This document shows, one piece after another, positions 507 to 12,220 of a stretch of DNA of 12,220 nt. This DNA is from Candidatus Eiseniibacteriota bacterium (GTDB lineage Bacteria; JAFGKV01), in NCBI GenBank assembly GCA_025453925.1, contig JALOPK010000167.1, positions 1 through 12,220 of the forward strand, written 5' to 3'. Positions within the stretch are counted from its first letter, which is position 1. Each line of letters opens with the position of its first letter. Position numbers and translations under genes: made by a program. The notes beneath the pieces are model-generated. The model worked only from the letters and a program-made list of their open reading frames with translations. It made no database searches and had not been told where the DNA came from.

Positions 507-1937
507 ATGCATCTTCTGATTCTTGCCGCCATTGCCGCGGTTGGCTACGTGTTGGGCACCAACCTCTCGGCCGGAGACCCGAAGGTGGCCGCGGCGGTAC
601 TGGCTTTTGTCGGTATCATCGCCAGTTTCTCGAAACCGTTCGCCGTACTCATGCTTCTTCTCGTTCTATCGCCCTTCCACGGCATGGCGCGGGCTTATTT
701 CCTCAGCCCCACGACCGCGCTGTGGAAGGAGTTCCTCGCAGTCTGCCTGACCGTCGGCTGGCTGGCGCGCCAAATCGTCCACCGGCAGAAGATGAAGGCC
801 AATGCCCTGAACATGCCAATCGCCTTGTTCACGGGCATCACGATTATCCACGGATTCACCTCTCCGACGCTTCTCCAGGGGCTTTACGAACTCAAGAAGA
901 CGGTGCCGTTCATTCCCATCTTCTTCTTCGTGGCGAACAACCCAATGAGCAAGCCTCAGCTCAAGCGGGTGATCACGGCATTGCTGGTGGTGGGAACGCT
1001 GACCGCCTTGATCGGCATCGTGCAGTGGGTTCTGGGGGGGCCGTGGCTGCTGCGGCACAACCTCATGTATGTCGGCCGCAACGTGGCCTTCCCGGCGTCG
1101 ACCTTTCTCCGCGCCTGGTCGACGTACGGCGGCCCCGGGTTCTTCGCCGCCAACCTTCTCGTCTACCTGTACATCGCGACCGCGTTGTTCGTGAGTCCGA
1201 GTCACGAGACGAGGCGGAACCGCATGCTCTTCGCCATGGTGCTGCTGTTTACCGCTCTGGTGTTCACGATGTCCCGTGGCCCCGTGATGCTTTACGGCAT
1301 CGGCCTCCTGGCGCTGAGCCACTACAGCGGCCGAAAGAGTCCTCTGCTCCTGGTTGCGCTGGCCACATTGGCGATAGTCGCCGTGTTCCCCGCGGCGGTG
1401 CGGGAGCGTGCCGCCATGAGCTTCGGTCAGCAGGACACGAGCTGGCAGTTCCGCATCTGGTTTCTCACGAATGTCGGCATCCCGGACATGATCAAACACC
1501 CTCTAGGCGCCGGGCTCGGCACCACCCGGGGGTTCAACTACGGGGTGGTGAGCGGGTTGGCCGACGTGACCGGTTTCACCGGCGAATTCGAGCGCCTGGA
1601 GGGCGGCACCGAGAACGGGTATCTGCACATAGGCATCCAGATGGGTTTCCCCGGTCTCGCGCTCTTCGTTTGGATCTTCCTCGCGTTTTTCGCGACGGGA
1701 TTCGGCATCTACCGGCGGTTGAAGGACCCTTATCTCCGGGCGATCGCGCTGGCCGCCCTCGCGGTGAATCTGGAGGTCACCGTGGGCAATATGCTCGGTG
1801 TGGCCTTCGACGCGTTTCCGTTGGACTTGTACTACTGGTTCCTCGCCGGGATCCTGGTGTCGCTCCCTGAGGTCGAAGCGGCGATGGAACGATCACAGAC
1901 GCCGGCCGTCGGGGCGCCTGTGGTGCCCCAAACGTGA
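507..1937 (+). CDS. O-antigen ligase/polymerase family membrane protein (Wzy/WaaL-like)
   Basis: This 476-residue polytopic membrane protein, with about 10-12 hydrophobic segments, belongs to the O-antigen ligase/Wzy_C superfamily. Members use polyprenyl-diphosphate-linked glycans at the outer face of the inner membrane, either joining a glycan to an acceptor (WaaL, PglL) or polymerising repeat units (Wzy). Family marks are Ser-Arg-Gly at 256-258 (SRGP), Arg316 in the loop before LGAGLG (333-338), and ENGYLH (369-374) before the hydrophobic stretch that starts near Gly379. The large hydrophilic loop at about 300-372 corresponds to the catalytic periplasmic loop. GGAG at 495-498 sits 8 bases before the ATG and supports this start. 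The gene is followed after 48 bases by the GT operon on the same strand, so co-transcription is likely. Ligase and polymerase cannot be told apart from sequence. A run of seven G (1034-1040) lies inside the gene. Confidence 0.85.
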   Translation: MHLLILAAIAAVGYVLGTNLSAGDPKVAAAVLAFVGIIASFSKPFAVLMLLLVLSPFHGMARAYFLSPTTALWKEFLAVCLTVGWLARQIVHRQKMKANALNMPIALFTGITIIHGFTSPTLLQGLYELKKTVPFIPIFFFVANNPMSKPQLKRVITALLVVGTLTALIGIVQWVLGGPWLLRHNLMYVGRNVAFPASTFLRAWSTYGGPGFFAANLLVYLYIATALFVSPSHETRRNRMLFAMVLLFTALVFTMSRGPVMLYGIGLLALSHYSGRKSPLLLVALATLAIVAVFPAAVRERAAMSFGQQDTSWQFRIWFLTNVGIPDMIKHPLGAGLGTTRGFNYGVVSGLADVTGFTGEFERLEGGTENGYLHIGIQMGFPGLALFVWIFLAFFATGFGIYRRLKDPYLRAIALAALAVNLEVTVGNMLGVAFDAFPLDLYYWFLAGILVSLPEVEAAMERSQTPAVGAPVVPQT

Positions 1938-1985
1938 CGGGTCGCCCCGTCCATCGTCGCGGGCATCTGACCACCGGCAGGCCCG

Positions 1986-3182
1986 ATGCTTGATCGTTTC
2001 CTCTCGCTGGCAGACCTCTTTCCCCCTGAGCGCTTCGGCGGCTCGGAACGGGTCATACTGGAACTCACCAGGGCCCTGGCACACGCCGGCTGCACGGCGG
2101 GCGTCATGGCGGGCGGGAGACATGTCCGTGAGCCCGATGCGACCTCTGCCGTCGCCGTGTGGCGCTACCGGGTGCGAACATCTCCTCTGCCGGTCCTGTT
2201 CGCCACGTCCTTCCTCAGGCTTCGCTCGATTCGGCGTCTCCCTGTGGTGGCGGACGGAGGCGCGTTGCTGCTGCACCATCCGCTCTCGGCATGGGGTGCC
2301 CTTCAGGCCGGACACGGCCGTTACGCCACTCCGGTCGGATTCTTCTACGGTCCCATCGACGAGGAGTGGGCCTGGCATTGGAGGCACGTGCGTAGACTGG
2401 GATCCAGGGGGTTGGTTTCCCCGCTTCTTCAGGGCGTGATACCCCCCCTTCTGCGGACGGTGCAGCGAGCGGCGCTCCGTCAAACCCAGGCCATCATCGT
2501 GCTTGGCTCGTATACGGAGCGCCTGGTGAAGAAACTGGTGCCGGAGGGGCCTGAGGTGTTCGTGGTTCCACCCGGCGTGGATCTCCAGCGATTCCACCCC
2601 GCGTCCGGCAAGGCCGAGGCGAAGCGGGCAATCGGCATCGATCCGGCCTCGGACGTGCTGCTCTCGGTACGCCGTCTCGTGCCGCGAATGGGGATTTCCA
2701 CGCTGCTCGAGGCGCTGTGGATACTGCGGAGAACGCGCCCATCCGTGCGGCTGGTGCTGGTGGGCACGGGAGAGCTTGCGCCGCGGCTGATGCGCGAGGC
2801 AGCCGCTTTGGGCCTCGCCGACTGCCTCACGCTCGCCGGCCACGTTGGTGATGCGGCGTTGGCCGACTACTACCGCGCCGCGGACGTGTTCGTGTTGCCC
2901 AGCGCGGCACTCGAGGGCTTCGGCCTCGTCACGCTGGAGGCGCTGGCCTCGGGCGTCCCGGTGGTCGGGACGACCATCGGAGAAACCCCATCGGTCATCG
3001 GTGATGCGCCGCACATCGGTGCGCTGGTGCCGCCTGCAGACTCCCGTGCAATGGCCGACGCGTGCAGAGCAGTGCTCGAGGGCAGCTTCTCACCTGAGGC
3101 GTGCCGCGGATTCGCCAGCCGATTCAGTTGGGCGACCATGGCCTCGTCCGTGCGCTCGATTGCGGCGGGTGCCTCCCGATGA
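1986..3182 (+). CDS. GT4-family glycosyltransferase (GT-B fold)
   Basis: This 398-residue protein is a probable retaining, cytoplasmic glycosyltransferase that moves a sugar from a nucleotide-sugar donor to a growing glycan. The N-terminal acceptor domain has the glycine-rich turn FGGSERV (17-23). The linker PPGVDLQRFHP (195-205) leads into the C-terminal donor domain. The E-x7-E nucleotide-sugar motif is E310-GFGLVTL-E318, followed by ALASGVPVVG. The usual R-x-x-x-E-K-G phosphate-binding stretch reads RRLVPRMG (229-236), so the conserved Lys is Met; this is a recognised variant in part of GT4, not necessarily a defect. ATG 1986 is the only reasonable start, because an in-frame TGA lies at 1968-1970 and the N-terminus then matches the family. 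The Shine-Dalgarno is weak (GGCAGG, 1976-1981). The stop overlaps the next start as ATGA (3179-3182). Donor and acceptor are unknown. It contains a run of seven C (2442-2448). Confidence 0.9.
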   Translation: MLDRFLSLADLFPPERFGGSERVILELTRALAHAGCTAGVMAGGRHVREPDATSAVAVWRYRVRTSPLPVLFATSFLRLRSIRRLPVVADGGALLLHHPLSAWGALQAGHGRYATPVGFFYGPIDEEWAWHWRHVRRLGSRGLVSPLLQGVIPPLLRTVQRAALRQTQAIIVLGSYTERLVKKLVPEGPEVFVVPPGVDLQRFHPASGKAEAKRAIGIDPASDVLLSVRRLVPRMGISTLLEALWILRRTRPSVRLVLVGTGELAPRLMREAAALGLADCLTLAGHVGDAALADYYRAADVFVLPSAALEGFGLVTLEALASGVPVVGTTIGETPSVIGDAPHIGALVPPADSRAMADACRAVLEGSFSPEACRGFASRFSWATMASSVRSIAAGASR

Positions 3183-4330
3183 GACCCATCCGTGTCCTGC
3201 ACCTGGTGCACACCCCGGGCCCCGGCGGCACCGAGGCAGTGGTCGGAAACCTGCTCTCCTGGCTCGCTCCTCGCGATGCCGTGCAGGCACTGGGGTGTCC
3301 CGATGGGCCTCTGGCGCGCGAGGCGGAGGAGGGCGGCACCCGTTGCTTCAGGGTGCCGTTTGAACGGGTGCGGCGGACATACTCGCCCGTCGCCCTTGTT
3401 CGATCGCTTGAGGCCGTCTCTGCCGTGCACTGGGCGCTGAATGATGCGATCGAGGCATTTGAGCCCGACATCGTGCATGCCCACGCCGCCAAGGCCACGG
3501 TCCTGGCGGGGAGATGCCGAAGCCTTGGGGAGTCGTCGTCATGGAAGCTCTTGTGGCACATGCATGATTACATTCCTCTGGGTCTGCTCCGTGGCCTGTG
3601 GATCCGGCGCGCCCGAGGGGCCGCGGATTCGATCGTGACGGTGTCCCGGCATGTCGCCGACAGCGTTCTGGGCCAGAGCCACGGCGCCGTGGTCATCCAC
3701 AATGCAATCCCTCCCACGATGCCCGCGGATCCCGTCGCGGGCGCCTCGATGCTGGAATCCCTGAGCATCCCGGCCGGCAGTCCGGTGATCGGGTACGCGG
3801 GGCGCCTGGACGCCGAGAAGGGCGTTGAGGAGTTGCTGCGTATCTTCCACCGGGTGTGCGCACAGGAACCGAAGGCCAGACTGCTCATCGCCGGCGGCTC
3901 CCCATTCCAGGCCGACGCCGCGGCGCGACACCTGATCGACCTGGCCGCGCGCCTCAATCTGCAGGACCGTGTGCACTTTCTCGGCAGGCTGCCGGATCTG
4001 ACATCCTTCTACGCCGCGCTCACCCTCTTTGCCCATCCTGCTCCACGCGAACCGTTCGGTCTGGTGGTCCTGGAGGCGCTGGCGCACGGGATCCCCGTGG
4101 TGGCATTCGACACGGGTGGTCCCCGGGAAATACTCTGTGGTTTCGAACCGGGGCTTCTGGTTGCCGCGGGCAACAGCGATGAGTTTGCGGCGACCTGTTG
4201 CCGGGTGGTGCGGAATGAGGCTCTCCTGACCCGCGTGCGAAGGGAAGGGCCGGGCTTTGTCTCCACGGCGTTTGGGCCGTCCGTCCAGGGCCGTGCGATA
4301 CTCGAACACTATCGGAGTATGTTGACGTGA
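3179..4330 (+). CDS. GT4-family glycosyltransferase (GT-B fold)
   Basis: This 383-residue glycosyltransferase is the second GT4 enzyme of the operon. The N-terminal Rossmann-like domain opens with a hydrophobic strand and the turn HTPGPGGTEAVV (11-22); PDIVHAH (96-102) and HMHDY (127-131) are typical GT4 acceptor-side motifs. The donor domain has GRLDAEKG (208-215), with the canonical Arg and Lys that contact the donor phosphates, and E291-PFGLVVL-E299, the E-x7-E motif, followed by ALAHGIPVVAFDTGG. The start at 3179 (ATG overlapping the previous TGA) is preferred over an in-frame start 78 bases upstream at 3101. The upstream extension has no family similarity and would overlap the neighbour by over 80 bases, whereas the 3179 start gives the expected N-terminus. 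Its stop overlaps the next gene as GTGA (4327-4330). All key residues are present. The sugar specificity cannot be read from sequence. Confidence 0.91.
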   Translation: MRPIRVLHLVHTPGPGGTEAVVGNLLSWLAPRDAVQALGCPDGPLAREAEEGGTRCFRVPFERVRRTYSPVALVRSLEAVSAVHWALNDAIEAFEPDIVHAHAAKATVLAGRCRSLGESSSWKLLWHMHDYIPLGLLRGLWIRRARGAADSIVTVSRHVADSVLGQSHGAVVIHNAIPPTMPADPVAGASMLESLSIPAGSPVIGYAGRLDAEKGVEELLRIFHRVCAQEPKARLLIAGGSPFQADAAARHLIDLAARLNLQDRVHFLGRLPDLTSFYAALTLFAHPAPREPFGLVVLEALAHGIPVVAFDTGGPREILCGFEPGLLVAAGNSDEFAATCCRVVRNEALLTRVRREGPGFVSTAFGPSVQGRAILEHYRSMLT

Positions 4331-5307
4331 CGCCTGCCCTCGTACAGAAGCTCCGGTGCCCTCGGTGTCGGTCTGATTCCCCCCTAGAGTCCACCTTCAC
4401 TGCGCTCAACCGCGAGGAGATCGAGAGTGGCGCGCTCACCTGCACGGCGTGTCGTGAGGAATACGCTATCGAGGAAGGGATTGCCGACCTTCTCGGATCC
4501 CACTCCGCCGTCGTACGCGGTGAGCGGGCCGTCTATCGAGGCAGCAAGATACAGGTTGAGGATCGGCTTCGTTCCCTGGATCCCGCCGCCCGTGATCTGG
4601 AGTTACGGCGGATCGCGTTCATGGAACACACAGGGGAGCAATTCCGACTCACCTCTTCACTGAACCTTCAGGGCGTGTTGGATAGGGTGTCCCCACGGCC
4701 TGGGCAATGGTTGATCGAGTTGGGCGCCGGGTCGGGCTGGCTGACCGCCCGCTGGGCAGCCCTCGGGCTCCATTGTGTCGCCGTGGACATCTCCGCGGAT
4801 CTCAAGCTCGACCTTTCCCCGCTGGTCATGAGCAGGGAAGGGGTCTTCTTCGACCGGCTCATGGCGGATATGACCAACCTGCCTATCCGCACGGGGGCGA
4901 TGGACTGGGTGTTCGTCTCGGCATCTCTCCACCACGCCGCGAGCCTGTCTGACAGTCTCCGCGAGGCGGCAAGGGTTCTGGCGCCAGAGGGCACGCTGGT
5001 GGTCATCGATCAGGCGGCGGAAGAGACGCCCGGCCTCCACGAGCGAAGCTTCACCTACCTCCAGTGGCGCCGCGCGCTGCGGAGCGCGGGCGTGCGGCCG
5101 GAATTCATGTTCCCTGCTTATTATCAGGCGATTCTTTCGGGCACCGCCAGCCTCCCTGTGGCATCTCGTCGATTCGCCTGGCTCGCCCAGGTTGCCTGGC
5201 GCTCGCGCCTGCGAGGGCTGCTGCTCTCCCGACCCGTTCAGACGGCCGCCAGAGTGCTGCTCGGCCTCAATGTCTGCATGATGGCCAGGAAGACGGGTGA
5301 CTCGTGA
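4327..5307 (+). CDS. SAM-dependent class I methyltransferase with N-terminal Cys4 (Trm112-like) domain
   Basis: This 326-residue cytoplasmic protein has two parts. Residues about 8-58 form a small Trm112/zinc-ribbon-like domain with two Cys pairs (C11/C14 and C39/C42), ending in the typical YAIEEGIADLL. Residues about 125-235 are a Rossmann-fold methyltransferase. Motif I is ELGAGSGWL (131-139) and binds S-adenosylmethionine. VDIS (153-156) supplies the acidic residue for the ribose. ADMTNLPI (180-187) is motif II-like, and SLHH (200-203) precedes a motif III region with VLAPEGTLVVID. This architecture is common in O-antigen and exopolysaccharide loci, where members may methylate a sugar or the end of a chain; the substrate here is unknown. 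The start is GTG, overlapping the previous stop as GTGA, and the first residues lead straight into the Cys domain. The end overlaps the next gene by another GTGA (5304-5307). The C-terminal ~75 residues are basic and were not assigned. Confidence 0.87.
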   Translation: MTPALVQKLRCPRCRSDSPLESTFTALNREEIESGALTCTACREEYAIEEGIADLLGSHSAVVRGERAVYRGSKIQVEDRLRSLDPAARDLELRRIAFMEHTGEQFRLTSSLNLQGVLDRVSPRPGQWLIELGAGSGWLTARWAALGLHCVAVDISADLKLDLSPLVMSREGVFFDRLMADMTNLPIRTGAMDWVFVSASLHHAASLSDSLREAARVLAPEGTLVVIDQAAEETPGLHERSFTYLQWRRALRSAGVRPEFMFPAYYQAILSGTASLPVASRRFAWLAQVAWRSRLRGLLLSRPVQTAARVLLGLNVCMMARKTGDS

Positions 5308-6827
5308 CCGCGAGCCACCCGTCAATCGGCCGCGACGCGAGCCGGGCCGTGTGGTTTCTCTTGCTCTCCGCCATGGCGGCGGTGGGAGCCGCGCTCCGGC
5401 TTTGGCACATCGATGCGCAGAGTCTGTGGCTTGACGAGGCCCAGTTCCTCCACGCGGCCGTCTTGTCGCGTTTCCGGGACATGATCCGCTTTCTGGTCGA
5501 GCAGGATTTTCACCCGCCGGCCTACCCTTTCATCCTGCGGGGCTGGCTCAAACTGACCGGGACCGGCGATGGCGCCGTGCGTGCGCTGCCCGCCCTGTTC
5601 GGCGTGGCACTCATACCCGCAACCGCAGAATTGGGCAGAGCCCTCTTCGGGCGCCGGGACATCGGCCTGTGGGCCGCGCTGGTGGTGACGCTCAACGGCT
5701 ATCACCTGTACTTGAGCCAGGAGGCCCGGCACTATACATGGCTTGCCCTGATTGGTGTTCTGCACATGCTGGCGTTCGTGCGGCTTCTCAGAACCGTCAG
5801 TGTCCGCTGGCTGCTGGCATTCTTCGTGTCGGGCACCGTGGGGCTTTTCTCCCACTACCACATGCTGCTCATCCTCACCGCCGAGGCCCTGGTTGCCCTT
5901 GCGTGGACGGGCCGGCGGATGTTGCTCCTCGCCATGGCTGCGTGTGCGATACCGTTCTTCGCCCTGTGGACGGGCCAGCTCATCGCCCAGAGCCACCGGC
6001 GGGCCCTCTGGGGCGAGGCGCTCATCGACCCGGGGATGAATCCGGCGACCGGGGCGGTCGCCGTGGCCACGAACCTCGGATGGAGCTTCCTTGATTTCTC
6101 TACGGGGAGTTATCTGCGGTTGGTGGGGAACGCCGGGTTCGACCTTCCCGATCTTTTCAAAGCCGCGGCGCTCGGCTCTGCCGGATGGCTAGCGCTCATG
6201 GGCCTCTGGTCCCAGACACGGCGAGAGTCGCCGGGACGTCAGGCGACGGGCGTGCTGGCGTGCCTCGGCCTTGTGCCCGTTGCCGGCGCCATCGCCAGTG
6301 GATTTCTCCAGGCCAACGTGTTCGAGACGAAGTACGTGTCCTTCGTGGCGCCGCTGTGGGCGGTTATCCTGGGCGCGGGATGCCGGGTCGGCCTCAGGGG
6401 GAGGATCGGGCGCGTCGTGGTGGCGTTGTTCGTGGGCGGGCTCCTCACCTCGGTGATTCACTACCACATGGAGGCCATCCCCTGGAAAGAGGATTGGCGG
6501 CACGCCTCCGGCCTTGTCGAGCGGGGGTGGAGACCGGGCGACATGCTGCTTCAGCGGGCGCCCTACACTGATTTCTCGCTGGATCACTATCTTCCCTTCC
6601 CGCCGACGAGGCTCTCTTCCGGCCTGGCCACCATCCCGAGCGAAGCGATGGCCGAATCAGTCTACCTGGAAGCGAGGCAGCGGGGGGCGCGAAGGTTGTG
6701 GGTGGTGCTCAGTCATGACGAACACGCCGAGACGACGCTCAGACTCCTCGGTCAGGCCATGCCCGTGGAGGGGTACTGGGTTCCCCACGGTATCCAGGTC
6801 GCCCGATTCAGGATGCCTCCCGGATGA
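5304..6827 (+). CDS. ArnT/PMT-like integral membrane glycosyltransferase (GT39/GT83 type, GT-C fold)
   Basis: This 507-residue polytopic inner-membrane protein resembles the PMT_2/ArnT glycosyltransferases, which use polyprenyl-phosphate sugars and act on the outer face of the membrane. After the first membrane helix comes WLDEAQ (42-47), with the Asp-Glu pair typical of the catalytic first loop. HPPAYPFILRGW (70-81) is the second diagnostic loop. SQEARHY (138-144) matches the conserved Gln-Glu-x-Arg-x-Tyr of the family, and TKYVSFVAP (342-350) resembles the later R/K-Y motif. About ten hydrophobic segments fill residues 15-385. The last ~120 residues are soluble and are expected outside the membrane. 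The start is GTG inside a GTGA overlap with the methyltransferase, and the end is an ATGA overlap with the next gene. The acceptor (lipid, glycan or protein) is unknown. Its presence suggests that part of this glycan is built from a lipid-linked donor. Confidence 0.85.
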   Translation: MTASHPSIGRDASRAVWFLLLSAMAAVGAALRLWHIDAQSLWLDEAQFLHAAVLSRFRDMIRFLVEQDFHPPAYPFILRGWLKLTGTGDGAVRALPALFGVALIPATAELGRALFGRRDIGLWAALVVTLNGYHLYLSQEARHYTWLALIGVLHMLAFVRLLRTVSVRWLLAFFVSGTVGLFSHYHMLLILTAEALVALAWTGRRMLLLAMAACAIPFFALWTGQLIAQSHRRALWGEALIDPGMNPATGAVAVATNLGWSFLDFSTGSYLRLVGNAGFDLPDLFKAAALGSAGWLALMGLWSQTRRESPGRQATGVLACLGLVPVAGAIASGFLQANVFETKYVSFVAPLWAVILGAGCRVGLRGRIGRVVVALFVGGLLTSVIHYHMEAIPWKEDWRHASGLVERGWRPGDMLLQRAPYTDFSLDHYLPFPPTRLSSGLATIPSEAMAESVYLEARQRGARRLWVVLSHDEHAETTLRLLGQAMPVEGYWVPHGIQVARFRMPPG

Positions 6828-8017
6828 AGGTGCTGTGGGCCAGTCCGTATCTCCCGCTCCCGGTGACCACTGGGGGCAAGCGGCGCATCGGCAGCCTCAT
6901 GCGGAAGCTCTCTCCACGCCACGAGATCACACTGGTTGCCTACGACCGGGGCGAGATCGCCAGCGCGCGAGAGGCCAGCAGAGGGCTGGTGCATGCCCTC
7001 CACACCGTGGGGCGCCGTCCAACCAAGAGCCCCGCCAACGCGGTGCTCTGGGCCGTGGGGCCCTGGCCGTTCATGGCCGTGGCGAACGGGTTCAATCCAG
7101 GTATGGTTCGGCTGCTTCGAGATGCCGTGAACAGCATCCGGCCGGATGTGGTCCACTGCGAGCACTTTCACCTCTGGCACTCCATGACCCGGGCCCGTCT
7201 TCCCGGATGGCCGCCGATCGTGCTCAGTCAGCAGGGCATCGAGTTTCTCATCACGGAACGGTTCGCCACAGTCCCCGCATCGGGGCTGCTCAGGGCGGGT
7301 CTCCGGCTGGAGCTTGCCAAGGCGCGCCGCTGGGAGGTCAGTGCCTGTCGCGCCGCGGATGCACTCATCGTGGTATCTCAAGAGGACAAGCGATTGTTGT
7401 CGGAGTTCGTCGCTGCCGAGCGGATCAGTGTCGTGGAGAACGGAGTCGACAGTGAGGAGTTCCACCCGCCGGAGGGAGGTATTGACCCGGCATCGTCTGT
7501 GATGCTATTCGTCGGCACGTTCTCGTTCTTCGGTAATCGCGACGCGCTCCACCACCTCGTCTATGAGATCCTGCCCCGAGTGCGCCAGGCGAGCCCCGCA
7601 GCGACCCTCCGCGTGATCGGCGAGAGCCCACCGCCAATCGTCACGGAGGGCGTGGAATTGCTGGGCAGCGTTCCCCAAGTGGGGCCCCACCTGGGGCAGG
7701 CAAGGCTGCTCATCGCGCCGCTGCGGACCGGGAGCGGGACGAAGCTCAAGGTGCTGGAGGCAATGGCCTGCGGCATACCCTTCGTCACGACGTCTCTTGG
7801 TGCGGAAGGGATAGATCGCGCCCATGAAGCAGGCATCATCGCGGACGACACAGACGGCCTTGTCGAGGGGGCAGTACGCCTGCTCGGTGACGTCGAACTC
7901 GCTCGACGGCTGGGTTTGAGAGGTCGTGAGATCGTCACCCGATGCTACTCGTGGGATGCCAGCGCTCATGCGCTGGAGGGGGCGTGGGAGGGAGTGGGAC
8001 ATGTGTGTCTTCGTTGA
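6824..8017 (+). CDS. GT-B glycosyltransferase (Glyco_trans_1_4 type)
   Basis: This 397-residue glycosyltransferase is the last gene of the coupled run. The N-terminus is SPYLPLPVTTGGKRR (7-21), the donor-domain entry is VENGVDSEEFHP (204-215), and VGTFSFFGNRDAL (230-242) is the strand-loop typical of this subgroup. The donor site reads PLRTGSGTKLKVLEAMACG (299-317). In this subgroup the first Glu of E-x7-E is replaced by Ser304 and the second, Glu312, is kept. Its style resembles the sugar transferases found with exopolysaccharide/exosortase loci, but no exosortase or PEP-CTERM gene is visible here. The ATG is inside an ATGA overlap (6824-6827), so translation is probably coupled to the upstream membrane enzyme. 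It ends 143 bases before the ABC genes. Substrates are unknown. Confidence 0.87.
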   Translation: MKVLWASPYLPLPVTTGGKRRIGSLMRKLSPRHEITLVAYDRGEIASAREASRGLVHALHTVGRRPTKSPANAVLWAVGPWPFMAVANGFNPGMVRLLRDAVNSIRPDVVHCEHFHLWHSMTRARLPGWPPIVLSQQGIEFLITERFATVPASGLLRAGLRLELAKARRWEVSACRAADALIVVSQEDKRLLSEFVAAERISVVENGVDSEEFHPPEGGIDPASSVMLFVGTFSFFGNRDALHHLVYEILPRVRQASPAATLRVIGESPPPIVTEGVELLGSVPQVGPHLGQARLLIAPLRTGSGTKLKVLEAMACGIPFVTTSLGAEGIDRAHEAGIIADDTDGLVEGAVRLLGDVELARRLGLRGREIVTRCYSWDASAHALEGAWEGVGHVCLR

Positions 8018-8072
8018 AGCCCTCACCATTCCTGTTCACAGAGAGCCTCCGGCGGCAACCGGTTCGTCTCCC

Positions 8073-8107
8073 GGAAGGGGAGCTCCCGGCACGGAGCTGC
8101 CTCCTTC
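8073..8107 (+). repeat. Imperfect hairpin in the gap between glycan and ABC genes
   Basis: In the 143-base gap (8018-8160), GGGGAGCTCC (8077-8086) pairs with GGAGCT plus CCTC (8093-8098 and 8100-8103). The pairing has one bulged G (8099), one G·T pair and a six-base loop. Three more pairs follow outside an A·C mismatch. It lies 59 bases after the last GT stop codon. There is no T-run, so it is not a classical intrinsic terminator. It could be an RNA processing or attenuation element, or chance. The rest of the gap shows only the 8-bp palindrome AACCGGTT (8057-8064) and no convincing promoter. Confidence 0.4.
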
Positions 8108-8146
8108 GACCCTGACGGCCACACCGTCCGGTAGCGGTCGGCGGGT

Positions 8147-8153
8147 AAGGGGA
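8147..8153 (+). promoter_or_regulatory. Ribosome binding site of ABC ATPase 1
   Basis: AAGGGGA sits 7 bases before ATG 8161. It supports that start and shows that this gene, unlike the coupled glycan genes, begins translation independently. Confidence 0.55.
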
Positions 8154-8160
8154 ACAAGCT

Positions 8161-9075
8161 ATGTCTGCGCTGATTGAGGCACGGGAACTCAGCTTCCATT
8201 ACGGGTCGCGCGCTGCGCTGGACAGCGTGTCCTTTTCGGTCCCGGAAGGGGCCACCGGCCTCCTGGGGCCCAATGGCGCGGGCAAGACCACTTTGGTCAG
8301 GCTAATCGTGGGCCATCTTCCTGTTTCTCCCGGCCGCCTATGGGTTCAGGGCACTGACGCCGCGGATAACTCCCGTATTCTGCGGGCCGCCATCGGCCTG
8401 GCGCCGGAGGGGGATGTTCTGGTGCCCGGGCTGAGTGGCGTCGCATACGTGGCCTATGCGGGGAGGCTGTCCGGCCTCAGCAGGCGCACTGCGATGGACA
8501 GGGCGCACATGTCGCTGCACCACGTCGGGCTGGGCGCCGACCGCTACCGCCGTGTTGAGGAGTACTCAAAGGGCATGCGTCAGAGGCTGAAGCTCGCCCA
8601 GGCGCTGGTGCACGATCCGCCATTCCTCATACTGGACGAACCCACCGACGGCATGGATCCGAAGGGACGAGACGAAATGCTCGAACTCCTCGCCAATCTT
8701 GCCGTGGATCATCGGAAGAACCTCCTGCTGTGCACGCACATCCTCGATGATGTGCAGCGAGTCTGCCAACGGGCCCTGGTGATTTCGCGCGGGAAGTCAA
8801 TGGGCGTCGTTGACCTGGCGAGTGCATCGAACCCTGTCGATACCTACGCGGTGTCGCTTGCCGGCGCGGTCGATGCGTTCGCCGCCTCCGCCGCGGCCCA
8901 CGGTGTGGGCCTGCGGGTGGATGCCTCGGGCGAAGGTGAGATCACGTTTGCGAGGGGCGAGGTTGATTCCGTGGTCGCCATGGCTCGGATGGCGGGCGCT
9001 GAAGTCCAGCGCCTGATTCCGGCCCGCGAGCGCCTCGAGGACATGTTCGCCCGGCTTGTCCGCCCGGAGGTATGA
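8161..9075 (+). CDS. ABC transporter ATP-binding protein 1 (NatA/ABC-2 exporter type)
   Basis: This 304-residue cytoplasmic ATPase powers an ABC-2 type exporter. Walker A is GPNGAGKTT (36-44). The Q-loop region is GLAPEGD (79-85), with Glu in place of Gln, as is common in the NatA/DRA class. The signature is YSKGMRQR (135-142) rather than LSGGQ. Walker B is FLILDEP (155-161) with catalytic Glu160. The D-loop is DGMDP (163-167), unlike the usual SGLDP, and the switch is His193. All catalytic residues are present. Residues about 225-304 form a C-terminal extension rich in Ala, Val and Gly, of the kind seen in this class; its role is unknown. The next gene, the permease, begins one base after the stop codon. 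A related but distinct ATPase follows the permease, so the two may work as a heterodimer. The exported substrate cannot be inferred. Confidence 0.91.
   Translation: MSALIEARELSFHYGSRAALDSVSFSVPEGATGLLGPNGAGKTTLVRLIVGHLPVSPGRLWVQGTDAADNSRILRAAIGLAPEGDVLVPGLSGVAYVAYAGRLSGLSRRTAMDRAHMSLHHVGLGADRYRRVEEYSKGMRQRLKLAQALVHDPPFLILDEPTDGMDPKGRDEMLELLANLAVDHRKNLLLCTHILDDVQRVCQRALVISRGKSMGVVDLASASNPVDTYAVSLAGAVDAFAASAAAHGVGLRVDASGEGEITFARGEVDSVVAMARMAGAEVQRLIPARERLEDMFARLVRPEV
9066..9070 (+). promoter_or_regulatory. Ribosome binding site deciding the permease start
   Basis: A consensus GGAGG lies 6 bases upstream of ATG 9077. It favours this start over an in-frame TTG at 9056, which would add seven residues and overlap the upstream ATPase gene. 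Confidence 0.7.
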
Positions 9076-9076
9076 C

Positions 9077-9919
9077 ATGCCTGCGTATCCGTACGAACCA
9101 CTGGCGTCGGCGCCATTTCCCCGTGCCCCCTGGCGGACGGTGTTCACCATGTACGCCAGGCGATATCTCCGGCGACGGAGTGTTGTCATCGTCATTCTTC
9201 TGGCGAACATCCCCACCGTTGTTGGCGCCGTGCTGCTCTATCTGATCGGACAGGGCAAGCAGATCGGGCCATTGAGCGACGCGCTTCCCAATATCAACAT
9301 GAAGCTCGCCCGCCCCTTCGTCGACAACTTCCTCACCGCTACGGCGATCCTCGCGGCCATCATCGGTCCCTCGGCGATCGCCGGGGAGCGGCGGGCCGGC
9401 GGCGTGGTGTTTCACCTCATCCGGCCCATGACCGGCAGGGAACTGCTGCTGGGGCACTGGCTGGCGGTCTCGGCGGTGCTGTGTGCCACCGGATTAGTGC
9501 CGCTGGTCGCGCTCTTTCTCTTCGGGAGGCTGGTGCTCCCGGCGAGTCTCCTGGGGGCTCTGCCGTGGAGTGCCGGCCTGCGGGTGCTTGGCGTGGGCGC
9601 GGTGGCGTCGGCGCTGGTGGGACTTGTGGTGATCGCGATCTCGGCCAGTGCCGGGAACAGCCGTGGGGCCTTTCTTGTGTGGCTCCTGTCCTACTTTGGG
9701 AGCAAGATCGCCATGGATGTGCTGCGCGCCGCCAAGGTCGGCGAGGTCGTGCGATGCCTGAGTTTGCCGGACGTACTCAAGCAGTTTGCCGCGTATGCTC
9801 TGGAAGGGACCGCCCGGTTCGAAGGTTGCGGGCCCTGGTGGATGCTGGTGTTCGCGGCGATAGTAGCGGCGGCTGTGGTGAGCCTCACCCGGGGAGTATC
9901 GGCCGTTGAGCGCACCTGA
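9077..9919 (+). CDS. ABC-2 type transporter permease
   Basis: This 280-residue inner-membrane protein is the only permease of the cassette. Six likely membrane segments lie at about 35-57, 84-103, 128-150, 163-190, 196-212 and 255-272. The stretch from IAGERRAGG (101-109) to RPMTGRELLLGHW (116-128), between segments two and three, is the ABC-2 hallmark: a Glu-Arg-containing turn followed by a Pro and a Gly-Arg-Glu coupling helix. The length is slightly short but normal for the family, and one copy would be expected to dimerise. ATG 9077 is chosen because of the GGAGG at 9066-9070. Its 3' end overlaps the second ATPase gene by 14 bases. The substrate (lipid, glycan, peptide or ion) is unknown. 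It is too divergent from Wzm-type polysaccharide permeases, by eye, to call it an O-antigen exporter. Confidence 0.86.
   Translation: MPAYPYEPLASAPFPRAPWRTVFTMYARRYLRRRSVVIVILLANIPTVVGAVLLYLIGQGKQIGPLSDALPNINMKLARPFVDNFLTATAILAAIIGPSAIAGERRAGGVVFHLIRPMTGRELLLGHWLAVSAVLCATGLVPLVALFLFGRLVLPASLLGALPWSAGLRVLGVGAVASALVGLVVIAISASAGNSRGAFLVWLLSYFGSKIAMDVLRAAKVGEVVRCLSLPDVLKQFAAYALEGTARFEGCGPWWMLVFAAIVAAAVVSLTRGVSAVERT
9891..9896 (+). promoter_or_regulatory. Ribosome binding site for the TTG start of ABC ATPase 2
   Basis: GGGGAG lies 9 bases before TTG 9906, within the end of the permease gene. No in-frame ATG or GTG is available before the first conserved ABC strand, so this site supports the TTG as the start. 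Confidence 0.55.
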
Positions 9920-10841
9920 CGTCGCGGTACGCCTCACGGGCGTATCCAAGTGGTACGGCGAGGTTCTGGGAGTCAGCGGTGTCACGTTGGACATCCCCCG
10001 CGGCGGGGTTTTCGGTCTCCTGGGGCCCAACGGCGCGGGCAAGAGCACACTGATGGGTGTCATCAGCGGGCTCCTGGCGCCGTCGGCGGGATCGGTCATG
10101 GTCTTTGGCCGCGATCCCCGGTTTTCCCGGGAGGCCCGGGCCGGCATCGGCCTTTGTCCGGAGGGTGATGCCGTTTTCCCCGGCATGAACTGCATCGAGT
10201 CTCTCGTCTACCTCGGTCGGCTTGCCGGGCTCTCCGCCGCAGTCAGCAGGGCGCGGTCCCGCGATGTCCTGGATCAACTGGGCCTCGCCGGCTTTGCGAA
10301 GCGCGAACTCAGGAAGATGAGCAAAGGGGAGCGGCAGCGGGTGAAGCTGGCGCAGGCGTTGCTGCACCATCCCGATCTGCTCCTTCTGGACGAGCCCCTT
10401 TCCGGCATGGACCCGTTGGTGCGGATTGACGTCACCACGTTGATCCGCGACCTGGGCGCGGGGGGTACGACCGTTCTGGTGTCCAGTCACATACTCTCCG
10501 AAGTCGAAGCCATGACGTCCCGGGTGATCGTCGTCAGCGCCGGAAAGGTCATCGCCAGCGGTCAGGTCGCGGAGATACGCGCCATGCTGAACCGCCACCC
10601 GCACAAAATCAAAGTGTCCTGCGACCGCCCCGCGGCCCTGGCCAGGGATCTCCTGGAGGGTCCGGGGGTCGTCGGCATGGAGCTTGGGGAAGGGGGCATC
10701 GTCGTCCGCACCACCGATCCTGGGCAGTTTTACGGGTTTCTCAATGATGCCATCGTCCGGGTTCGCCCGGGGGTCGAGGGGTTCTCCGCAGAGGATCATG
10801 ACCTTGCCTCGGTGTTTCAGTATCTGGTCCCGGGGCAATAG
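9906..10841 (+). CDS. ABC transporter ATP-binding protein 2 (NatA/ABC-2 exporter type)
   Basis: This 311-residue ATPase is the second of the cassette and a diverged paralogue of ATPase 1. Walker A is GPNGAGKST (40-48). The Q-loop region is GLCPEGD (82-88). The signature is MSKGERQR (138-145). Walker B is LLLLDEP (158-164) with Glu163, the D-loop is SGMDP (166-170), and the switch is His195. The core seems fully active. The C-terminal ~80 residues form an ABC-2-type extension ending in DHDLASVFQYLV. The start is a TTG overlapping the permease by 14 bases; the reading frame fits from the fourth or fifth residue on. Shared local wording with ATPase 1 (IGLxPEGD, GRLxGLS, QRxKLAQAL) points to an ancient duplication. 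Two different ATPases with one permease suggest an asymmetric transporter, though homodimers or a missing second permease are possible. Confidence 0.9.
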   Translation: MSAPDVAVRLTGVSKWYGEVLGVSGVTLDIPRGGVFGLLGPNGAGKSTLMGVISGLLAPSAGSVMVFGRDPRFSREARAGIGLCPEGDAVFPGMNCIESLVYLGRLAGLSAAVSRARSRDVLDQLGLAGFAKRELRKMSKGERQRVKLAQALLHHPDLLLLDEPLSGMDPLVRIDVTTLIRDLGAGGTTVLVSSHILSEVEAMTSRVIVVSAGKVIASGQVAEIRAMLNRHPHKIKVSCDRPAALARDLLEGPGVVGMELGEGGIVVRTTDPGQFYGFLNDAIVRVRPGVEGFSAEDHDLASVFQYLVPGQ

Positions 10842-10905: not shown

Positions 10906-11202
10906 ATGAGCCGGGCACCATTCGTTGCGCTTCTCGCCATGCTGGGATTCATCGCCCTGGTAGCCTTGGGTCTGGGGTGGCATCCCCGAACCGGGGGAGA
11001 ATTGTGGTCCCGCGCCCCGGGGCGCCAAGGCTCGGCCGGACACGCTCCGGAGACGCCGTCACTGGGTGACACCATGCCCGGACCGCTCGACCTCTCCGCG
11101 ACCCCTCCCGAGTCTCTCGCTGCATCGACGCCCCCGGAGCCTCTGGAACGCCCCGACTCCCTCACCGATTCCACTGCGACTGGTCTCGCTGAGACCATAT
11201 AG
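10906..11202 (+). CDS. Small membrane-anchored proline-rich protein, function unknown
   Basis: This 98-residue protein was not recognised. Residues 6-24 form one hydrophobic segment (from FVALLAMLG to GLG) preceded by Arg3, which fits an N-terminal membrane anchor with the rest outside. No clear signal peptidase site or lipobox Cys is seen. Residues 26-98 are polar and rich in Pro, Ser, Thr and Glu, with an imperfect repeat PPESL (67-71) and PPEPL (76-80). No catalytic motif is visible, and this part is probably disordered. It starts 64 bases after ATPase 2 with a strong ribosome binding site, so it is probably the last gene of the ABC operon. Its stop codon (TAG, 11200-11202) lies inside the inverted repeat at 11194-11235. 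It could be an accessory subunit of the transporter, a cell-surface protein, or a remnant. The strong ribosome binding site argues that it is a real gene. Confidence 0.6.
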   Translation: MSRAPFVALLAMLGFIALVALGLGWHPRTGGELWSRAPGRQGSAGHAPETPSLGDTMPGPLDLSATPPESLAASTPPEPLERPDSLTDSTATGLAETI

Positions 11203-11235
11203 GACACGTCCAATATAGGACGTGTCCTATATGGT
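11194..11235. repeat. Perfect 18-bp inverted repeat made of four 9-bp half-sites
   Basis: ACCATATAGGACACGTCC (11194-11211) is the exact reverse complement of 11218-11235, with a six-base AATATA loop. Inside it the half-site ATATAGGAC occurs at 11197-11205 and 11213-11221, and its complement GTCCTATAT at 11224-11232 (exact) and 11208-11216 (one mismatch). This gives two 20-bp interrupted palindromes, 16 bases apart and sharing four bases. The element is AT-richer than its surroundings. It sits at the end of the plus-strand genes, facing a convergent glycosyltransferase gene. As RNA it would form a very stable hairpin on either strand, but no T-run follows, so a classical terminator is not certain. 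A dispersed repeat (REP or MITE-like), a bidirectional terminator or a protein-binding site are alternatives. Confidence 0.92.
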
Positions 11236-11375: not shown

Positions 11376-12220
11376 TCACTCCATCATTTCCGCCTTCCGC
11401 TCATCGAGAAACGTGCAGAGGCGATGGGTGGCTTCGATGAAGCGGGGCCAGGAATAGCGCTCCTCCACCAGCCGACGGCCCGCTTTGCCGAGCCGATCGG
11501 CGATGGCGCCGTCGCTGAGGACTCGGACTAAGCCCGCGGCCAACGCTGCCGATTCCGGCGCCACGAGGATTGCCGTCTCCGGGGTCAGCACCTGGGTGTG
11601 GGTCTCAAGATCCGTGGCGACGATGGGCTTCCCGGACTGGAGATATGAGTAGATCTTCAGGGGTGTGTTCTGCCCTACCAGCCGGGGAGAGACCAGCACG
11701 GAGGCCATCTCCATGAATGAAGGCATCTCCTCCGGGGGACGCTGTCCGGTCAACCGCACGTGGTCGGTCAACCCCATCCGCTCCGTCCGGGAGCGGAGCT
11801 CACTTACCTGGCCGGCCTCGCCGCCGACCAGCACGAACAGGGCGCCGGGGCAGCGGGCCAGCACCTGCGGAGCAGCCTCCATCAGGAGATCAAGGCCCTG
11901 GTTCACCTCAAAGGTTCCGGTGTAGAGTACGACCTGCCTGCCGTCGGCCTCCAGGCTCCTGCGCAAGGCCCTGGACCGGACCGCAGTGTCGGGCCCAGGC
12001 GGTTCGCACACCGGGGGGTTCTCGATGAGGAACACCCGTTTCCCGGGGTCGATCGCCCTGGCGACATGCTCCAGCCACGGGCAGACGACGATCACGGCCG
12101 CGCTGTGTCGCACGATCCATGCTTCGGCGTACCGCGCGAGCGCCAGGAGGGCGCGCGGTTTGGTGAATTGGTAGTTCAGAAGCTGCTGGGGCAGGCTCGA
12201 GTGCATGTCGTACACATGGG
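11376..12220 (-). CDS. GT-B glycosyltransferase, C-terminal part (5' truncated by window edge)
   Basis: The visible 281 codons are the C-terminal two thirds of a glycosyltransferase on the minus strand. The first visible residues, HVYDMHSSLPQQ, are internal and match the YDMHSSLP motif of this GT4-like group, so the apparent start at 12215 (GTG) is not real. The donor domain shows ENPPVCEPP at the linker, YTGTFEVNQGLDLL with the Gly-rich turn, and VGQNTPLKIYSYLQSGKPIVATD at the sugar-nucleotide site. There the positions of the two E-x7-E glutamates appear to be Gln and Ser, a feature of this subgroup. It ends in a helix with the usual RYSWPRFIEAT. It is convergent with the ABC cassette and so belongs to another transcript, probably a further part of the same glycan locus. 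Specificity is unknown. Confidence 0.85.
   Translation of the reverse strand, partial: HVYDMHSSLPQQLLNYQFTKPRALLALARYAEAWIVRHSAAVIVVCPWLEHVARAIDPGKRVFLIENPPVCEPPGPDTAVRSRALRRSLEADGRQVVLYTGTFEVNQGLDLLMEAAPQVLARCPGALFVLVGGEAGQVSELRSRTERMGLTDHVRLTGQRPPEEMPSFMEMASVLVSPRLVGQNTPLKIYSYLQSGKPIVATDLETHTQVLTPETAILVAPESAALAAGLVRVLSDGAIADRLGKAGRRLVEERYSWPRFIEATHRLCTFLDERKAEMME

Follow-up and report, generated by a model that had tools for sequence, protein, structure and literature searches.

A dispersed double palindrome as a probable binding site of an AphA-like PadR regulator in two genomes of one bacterial genus

AphA of Vibrio cholerae, a member of the PadR-1 family, recognises the site ATGCAA-N4-TTGCAT and binds paired sites cooperatively with a footprint of 37 bp (PMC6855506). 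The element described here lies in a 12,220-nucleotide stretch of DNA (the window, contig JALOPK010000167.1) and resembles AphA sites in its palindrome geometry, TAT(3)AC-NN-GT(3)ATA, in the pairing of adjacent sites (here a 36-bp double) and in its candidate binder, a dimeric PadR-1 protein with a Vir_act_alpha_C domain. It differs from them in the letters of the half-site (AGG for GCA), in being nearly always a rigid double with a 16-bp offset, whereas many AphA sites are single or degenerate, and in its location, which is non-promoter and often in 3' intergenic DNA. The same palindrome is found at putative PadR autoregulatory operators in Salinibacterium and in a genome designated G062, where the doubling with a 16-bp offset is seen too, but these operators occur in one copy per genome and the present element as 30-40 doubles.

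REP and BIME sequences of enterobacteria are dispersed intergenic palindromes, present in tens of copies and biased to the 3' ends of genes. The element shares all of these features, but association with a transposase was not found and there is no asymmetric head; its arms appear to evolve as protein half-sites, and the promoter of a regulator carries a site. A precedent for a nucleoid-associated protein of the PadR family is NapM of mycobacteria, discussed as DNA-bridging in the part of the source drawn on here (PMC13340245), which describes no dispersed, sequence-specific set of palindromes for it. Our main reading, to which we give a probability of about 0.7, is that the elements are double binding sites for an AphA-like PadR-1 protein and for the most part not ordinary promoter operators.

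The double element in the window

The perfect 18-bp inverted repeat reported in the first-pass annotation is present, with arms at 11194-11211 and 11218-11235 around a 6-nt centre, and the whole reads ACCATATAGGACACGTCC-AATATA-GGACGTGTCCTATATGGT. Three of the four half-site copies counted within it are exact and one carries a mismatch, their order being ATATAGGAC (11197-11205), GTCCAATAT (11208-11216, the complement of ATATAGGAC with one mismatch), ATATAGGAC again (11213-11221) and GTCCTATAT (11224-11232). Both of the overlapping 20-bp palindromes, with centres AC and GT, were seen as well, and they make up a core of 36 bp in which two ATATAGGACNNGTCCTATAT palindromes are offset by exactly 16 bp and have ATAT in common. 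The features of the element and its surroundings are as follows.

9906..10841, plus strand: ABC transporter ATPase (PF00005), left convergent partner; its orthologue adjoins the same element in the congener
10906..11202, plus strand: small ORF of 98 aa with a hydrophobic N-terminus, kept in the congener (locus L084, 3751-4038)
11194..11211, plus strand: left arm of the outer 18-bp inverted repeat, from sequence and fold
11197..11232, no strand: double element, two ATATAGGACNNGTCCTATAT with a 16-bp offset, proposed cooperative double operator of PadR/AphA type
11197..11216, no strand: palindrome 1, ATATAGGACACGTCCAATAT, one mismatch to the consensus
11213..11232, no strand: palindrome 2, ATATAGGACGTGTCCTATAT, exact consensus
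11218..11235, minus strand: right arm of the outer 18-bp inverted repeat, from sequence and fold
11376..12215, minus strand: glycosyltransferase (PF13692), right convergent partner; its orthologue adjoins the same element in the congener

There is indeed more order here than chance would give, as two matches to the palindrome (up to 3 mismatches) occur in the window and none in 200 dinucleotide shuffles, and the element folds as RNA with -38.1 kcal/mol (z = -9.3). The perfection of the outer 18-bp repeat is partly luck, because the two-base (NN) centres of the palindromes are mostly non-complementary in the other copies (complementary pairs in 8 of 34 double elements of the same genome, 5.5 expected).

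The ABC ATPase and the glycosyltransferase do converge on the element, as had been noted, but the small conserved ORF, which was overlooked by simple gene finding and follows the ABC cassette, ends within it, its TAG stop codon (11200-11202) coming from the element itself. The stop codon of the ORF in the congener likewise lies inside the element, and a Pfam search with the small ORF gave no match. Upstream, positions 507-10841 hold a cluster resembling those for surface polysaccharides. It encodes several glycosyltransferases and a protein like O-antigen ligases (PF04932), after which come an ABC-2 permease and two ABC ATPases that flank it.

Copies, positions and conservation

The window's genome (G000; 3.9 Mb, 502 contigs, 82% complete) and a second genome from its genus (G001, the congener, a Candidatus Fermentibacteria whose loci coincide with Zod_Metabat.355) are both fragmented assemblies, presumably from uncultured organisms, and gene calls in them are approximate. 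With up to 3 mismatches allowed, 87 palindromes were found in the window's genome and none with the reversed control, and 40 double elements were recovered with a 34-bp pattern; the congener has 61 palindromes and 30 double elements. The element is thus far from unique in its own genome, and its description as a lineage-specific dispersed repeat holds well, as no copy was found among 58 other bacterial genomes searched, including one of the same family (G002). A search of about 85,000 species genomes found the exact palindrome at only nine other places; five belong to Salinibacterium and the related PHSC20C1, others to Paraburkholderia, Nostoc and Anaerolineales. This list and the assignment of the congener to Candidatus Fermentibacteria do not bear out the tentative link to repeats in some PVC-group genomes. 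The window region had no blastn match among plasmids. A phage or viral origin was rejected, as IMG/VR contains the single palindrome once and the double site nowhere. A literature search for palindromes in Fermentibacteria found nothing relevant.

Two of the outside matches, in two Paraburkholderia species (L019 879-898 and L020 795-814), are exact single palindromes with differing NN centres that precede a large autotransporter-like ORF by about 95 bp, with no PadR gene adjacent. The match on an Anaerolineales contig (L024 4004-4023) is intergenic, sits within a longer palindrome (GACGTCATATAGGACGAGTCCTATATGACGTT) and also has no PadR gene next to it.

The anatomy of the copies was compared over 37 double elements of the window's genome and 29 of the congener. 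The two palindromes are 16 bp apart and a third is never present, while a few copies in the two genomes consist of a single palindrome. The GA and TC letters are near invariant, the NN centres vary with a leaning to purine-pyrimidine, and the inner half-sites are looser than the outer ones, many inner half-sites of the congener being ATGAC. Flanks are unconserved, except for a C just outside the element in the window's genome. The arms, outer and inner, show no compensatory changes of the kind expected of a structured RNA (in the window's genome, 0 against 0.72 expected for the outer arms and 1 against 0.73 for the inner arms), a pattern that favours independent protein half-sites over an RNA stem. 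Only the NN centres are slightly more complementary across the outer repeat than expected (59 cells against 46.9, P = 0.006, both genomes pooled), which could be explained by an RNA or cruciform role.

All of the 64 elements first examined lie outside predicted genes. Positional classes were assigned with a home-made hexamer gene finder that misses small genes; on this basis, convergent regions hold 11 of 26 sites in the window's genome (13.7% expected from intergenic length, P = 3e-4) and 6 of 24 in the congener (11.8% expected, P = 0.056), or 17 of 50 when pooled (about 12-14% expected). Between co-directional genes, 17 of 22 sites are closer to the 3' end of the upstream gene (P = 0.008). 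The bias to 3' ends and convergent regions is thus moderate, and strong only in the window's genome; many copies sit 100-400 bp past gene ends and some are in divergent regions.

The window element has an orthologue in the congener (L084), which lies between the orthologous convergent genes (flanking proteins 75-76% identical) and matches it at 33 of 36 bases, forming an island within diverged intergenic DNA. Counterparts next to an orthologous gene were found for 7 of the 42 sites examined in the window's genome, where a rough estimate gives well under one gene end by chance; a few of the other sites clearly lack one, and the figure is a bound and no rate, as the congener DNA fetched was enriched for site loci. 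Judged from these alignments, element positions are partly conserved and partly turned over. Turnover is substantial, most positions in the window's genome being unseen in the congener, and a copying mechanism may have contributed.

The PadR gene and the candidate binder

One copy of the element reveals the likely binder, as it coincides with the -10 promoter box of a PadR gene. This gene (contig C333, 426-986, locus L048) encodes a PadR-1 protein with PadR (PF03551) and Vir_act_alpha_C (PF10400) domains, 74% identical to its orthologue in the congener (L092). The solved structure nearest to this protein is that of AphA (1yg2, E = 6e-24). Both species have the element about 20 bp ahead of the PadR start, with a -35 box (TTGACT/TTGACA) 17 bp from the first TATATA of the element, which therefore covers the -10 box. 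A -35 box at a fitting spacing is almost confined to this copy, the locus L052 being perhaps a second case. The element has the palindrome of AphA geometry, TATNNNACNNGTNNNATA, in the form TATAGGAC-NN-GTCCTATA.

Adjacency of a PadR gene to one of about 40 copies could by itself be due to chance, and it is evidence from other phyla that carries the assignment of the binder. In all five exact matches from the Salinibacterium group, which differ in their NN centres, the palindrome directly precedes a PadR gene whose product is of the same HFWPADQSQ type as that of the window's genome (about 41-43% identity). When 386 genomes were searched with the PadR protein, the best match beyond the genus was that of G062 (45% identity). 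Its promoter carries TATAGGACTTGTAGCATATAGTACAAGTCCTATA, again a double with the 16-bp offset, which occurs once in that genome. This double site (L198, reverse strand, ahead of the start of the PadR gene) lies inside a perfect 27-bp inverted repeat made of CCACCCCGTGCCATTATAGGACTTGTA and its complement around an 8-bp centre. A PadR gene on a Kovacikia plasmid has GTCCTATATATGACTAATCATATAG upstream. Across 21 distant homologues, G062 and Kovacikia included, 9 have a TATNNNACNNGTNNNATA palindrome upstream (up to 2 mismatches, at least 6 of 8 positions paired), compared with 0.13 expected from shuffling. The same-family genome that lacks the elements also lacks a close PadR (best 33%). No upstream site was found for some homologues of similar identity, such as that of Deinococcus ficus (46%). 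Nothing relevant turned up in the literature on PadR proteins with TATAGGAC or on ChIP-seq of PadR proteins at convergent genes.

On this evidence PadR is probably the binder of the elements, and of the roles offered in the first-pass annotation the display of ordered sites to a dimeric protein is the best reading, consistent with the independent half-sites and the association with PadR promoters. One PadR dimer would sit on each 18-20-bp palindrome, and two dimers with centres 16 bp (about 1.5 helical turns) apart would bind the 36 bp cooperatively. At its own gene, bound PadR would regulate, and probably repress, the promoter. The proposal of an operator can be kept for this copy but not for the rest, which are mostly at non-promoter sites; we accordingly call all copies putative PadR binding sites and only the PadR-gene copy a putative promoter operator.

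Possible roles of the dispersed copies

It had been proposed that a genome-wide search would separate a terminator or REP role (copies at convergent 3' ends) from that of an operator (copies upstream of genes), and it gave both, 3'-end and convergent copies together with the one at the PadR promoter. The window element folds into a strong hairpin and takes in the stop codon of the small ORF, and the copies lean to convergent regions and 3' ends, as a bidirectional terminator or mRNA 3'-end hairpin might, but the GC-rich hairpin with a following T-run that marks an intrinsic terminator is absent, a scan found no terminator-like site and an Rfam search no match. Given also the lack of compensatory changes in the arms, the distance of many copies from gene ends and the occurrence of others at -10 boxes and in divergent regions, we regard a terminator as highly improbable. 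A set of tens of intergenic palindromes across a chromosome also recalls the site sets of Noc or MatP, and a partition site of the parS type bound by another protein such as ParB was considered; each of the two genomes has a single ParB_N protein, with no second paralogue and no element at its locus, and the geometry and promoter association favour PadR, making this the least credible of the explanations.

Two others deserve somewhat more weight, though both seem unlikely to us. If the elements were an ordinary regulon, each would be the operator of a nearby promoter, possibly of an unannotated small RNA, and PadR a global regulator; PadR regulators do work at promoters, a well-spaced -35 box exists at the PadR gene and some copies are in divergent regions. 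Against this, -35-like boxes are not enriched at any offset from the elements, a scan found no promoter-like site near the window copy, the flanking genes as read from their sequences have no common theme and convergent and 3'-end positions are preferred; such regulation is possible for some copies. A repeat of REP or MITE type spread by a transposase (e.g. Y1/RAYT), its resemblance to a PadR site being secondary or due to hitch-hiking, would fit the lineage-specific, intergenic palindromes in tens of copies and the many positions not seen as common to both species; a full 36-bp site arises at a new place more easily by copying than by point mutation, and Y1_Tnp proteins are encoded in both genomes. 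None of the elements is near any Y1_Tnp locus, though, and the same-family genome has Y1_Tnp without elements. Common flanks and GTAG-type asymmetry are lacking, the NN centres vary freely, orthologous copies are kept against diverged flanks, and this explanation does not account for PadR promoters in other phyla having this architecture.

Returning to PadR as the binder, a non-promoter role is favoured for the dispersed copies because they have no promoter signature and their flanking genes no evident theme. In related bacteria such a site occurs once, at the regulator's own promoter, and in the Fermentibacteria genus it appears to have multiplied to about 40 copies, mostly off promoters. There PadR might serve as a chromosomal docking factor that blocks or insulates transcription between neighbouring genes, and/or the copies might contribute to nucleoid organisation, to titration of the autoregulated PadR, or to both. 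A true chromosome-organising or insulating function is put forward tentatively, and it is with similar reserve that we suggest that a local autoregulator has become a chromosome-wide factor by multiplication of its double operator to about 40 partly position-conserved sites.

An operator that other lineages have once per genome and this genus about 40 times, at places where one would not look for classical regulation, would offer a route from a one-gene regulator to a nucleoid-associated protein. If PadR does bind, the genomes allow a before-and-after comparison (one site in G062 and in Salinibacterium, no site and no close PadR in the same-family genome, 30-40 in the two of the genus) that would bear on the evolution of local regulators into proteins that organise or insulate the chromosome or, alternatively, on the tuning of an autoregulated repressor by decoy sites. 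It would also assign a DNA motif to a PadR subfamily found in several phyla.

The congener additionally has a second, unrelated palindrome, GACTATTCTAATATTAGAATAGTC, which is identical in at least five places:

C3, 562-585
C78, 312-335
C159, 1358-1381
C232, 36534-36557
C271, 1593-1616
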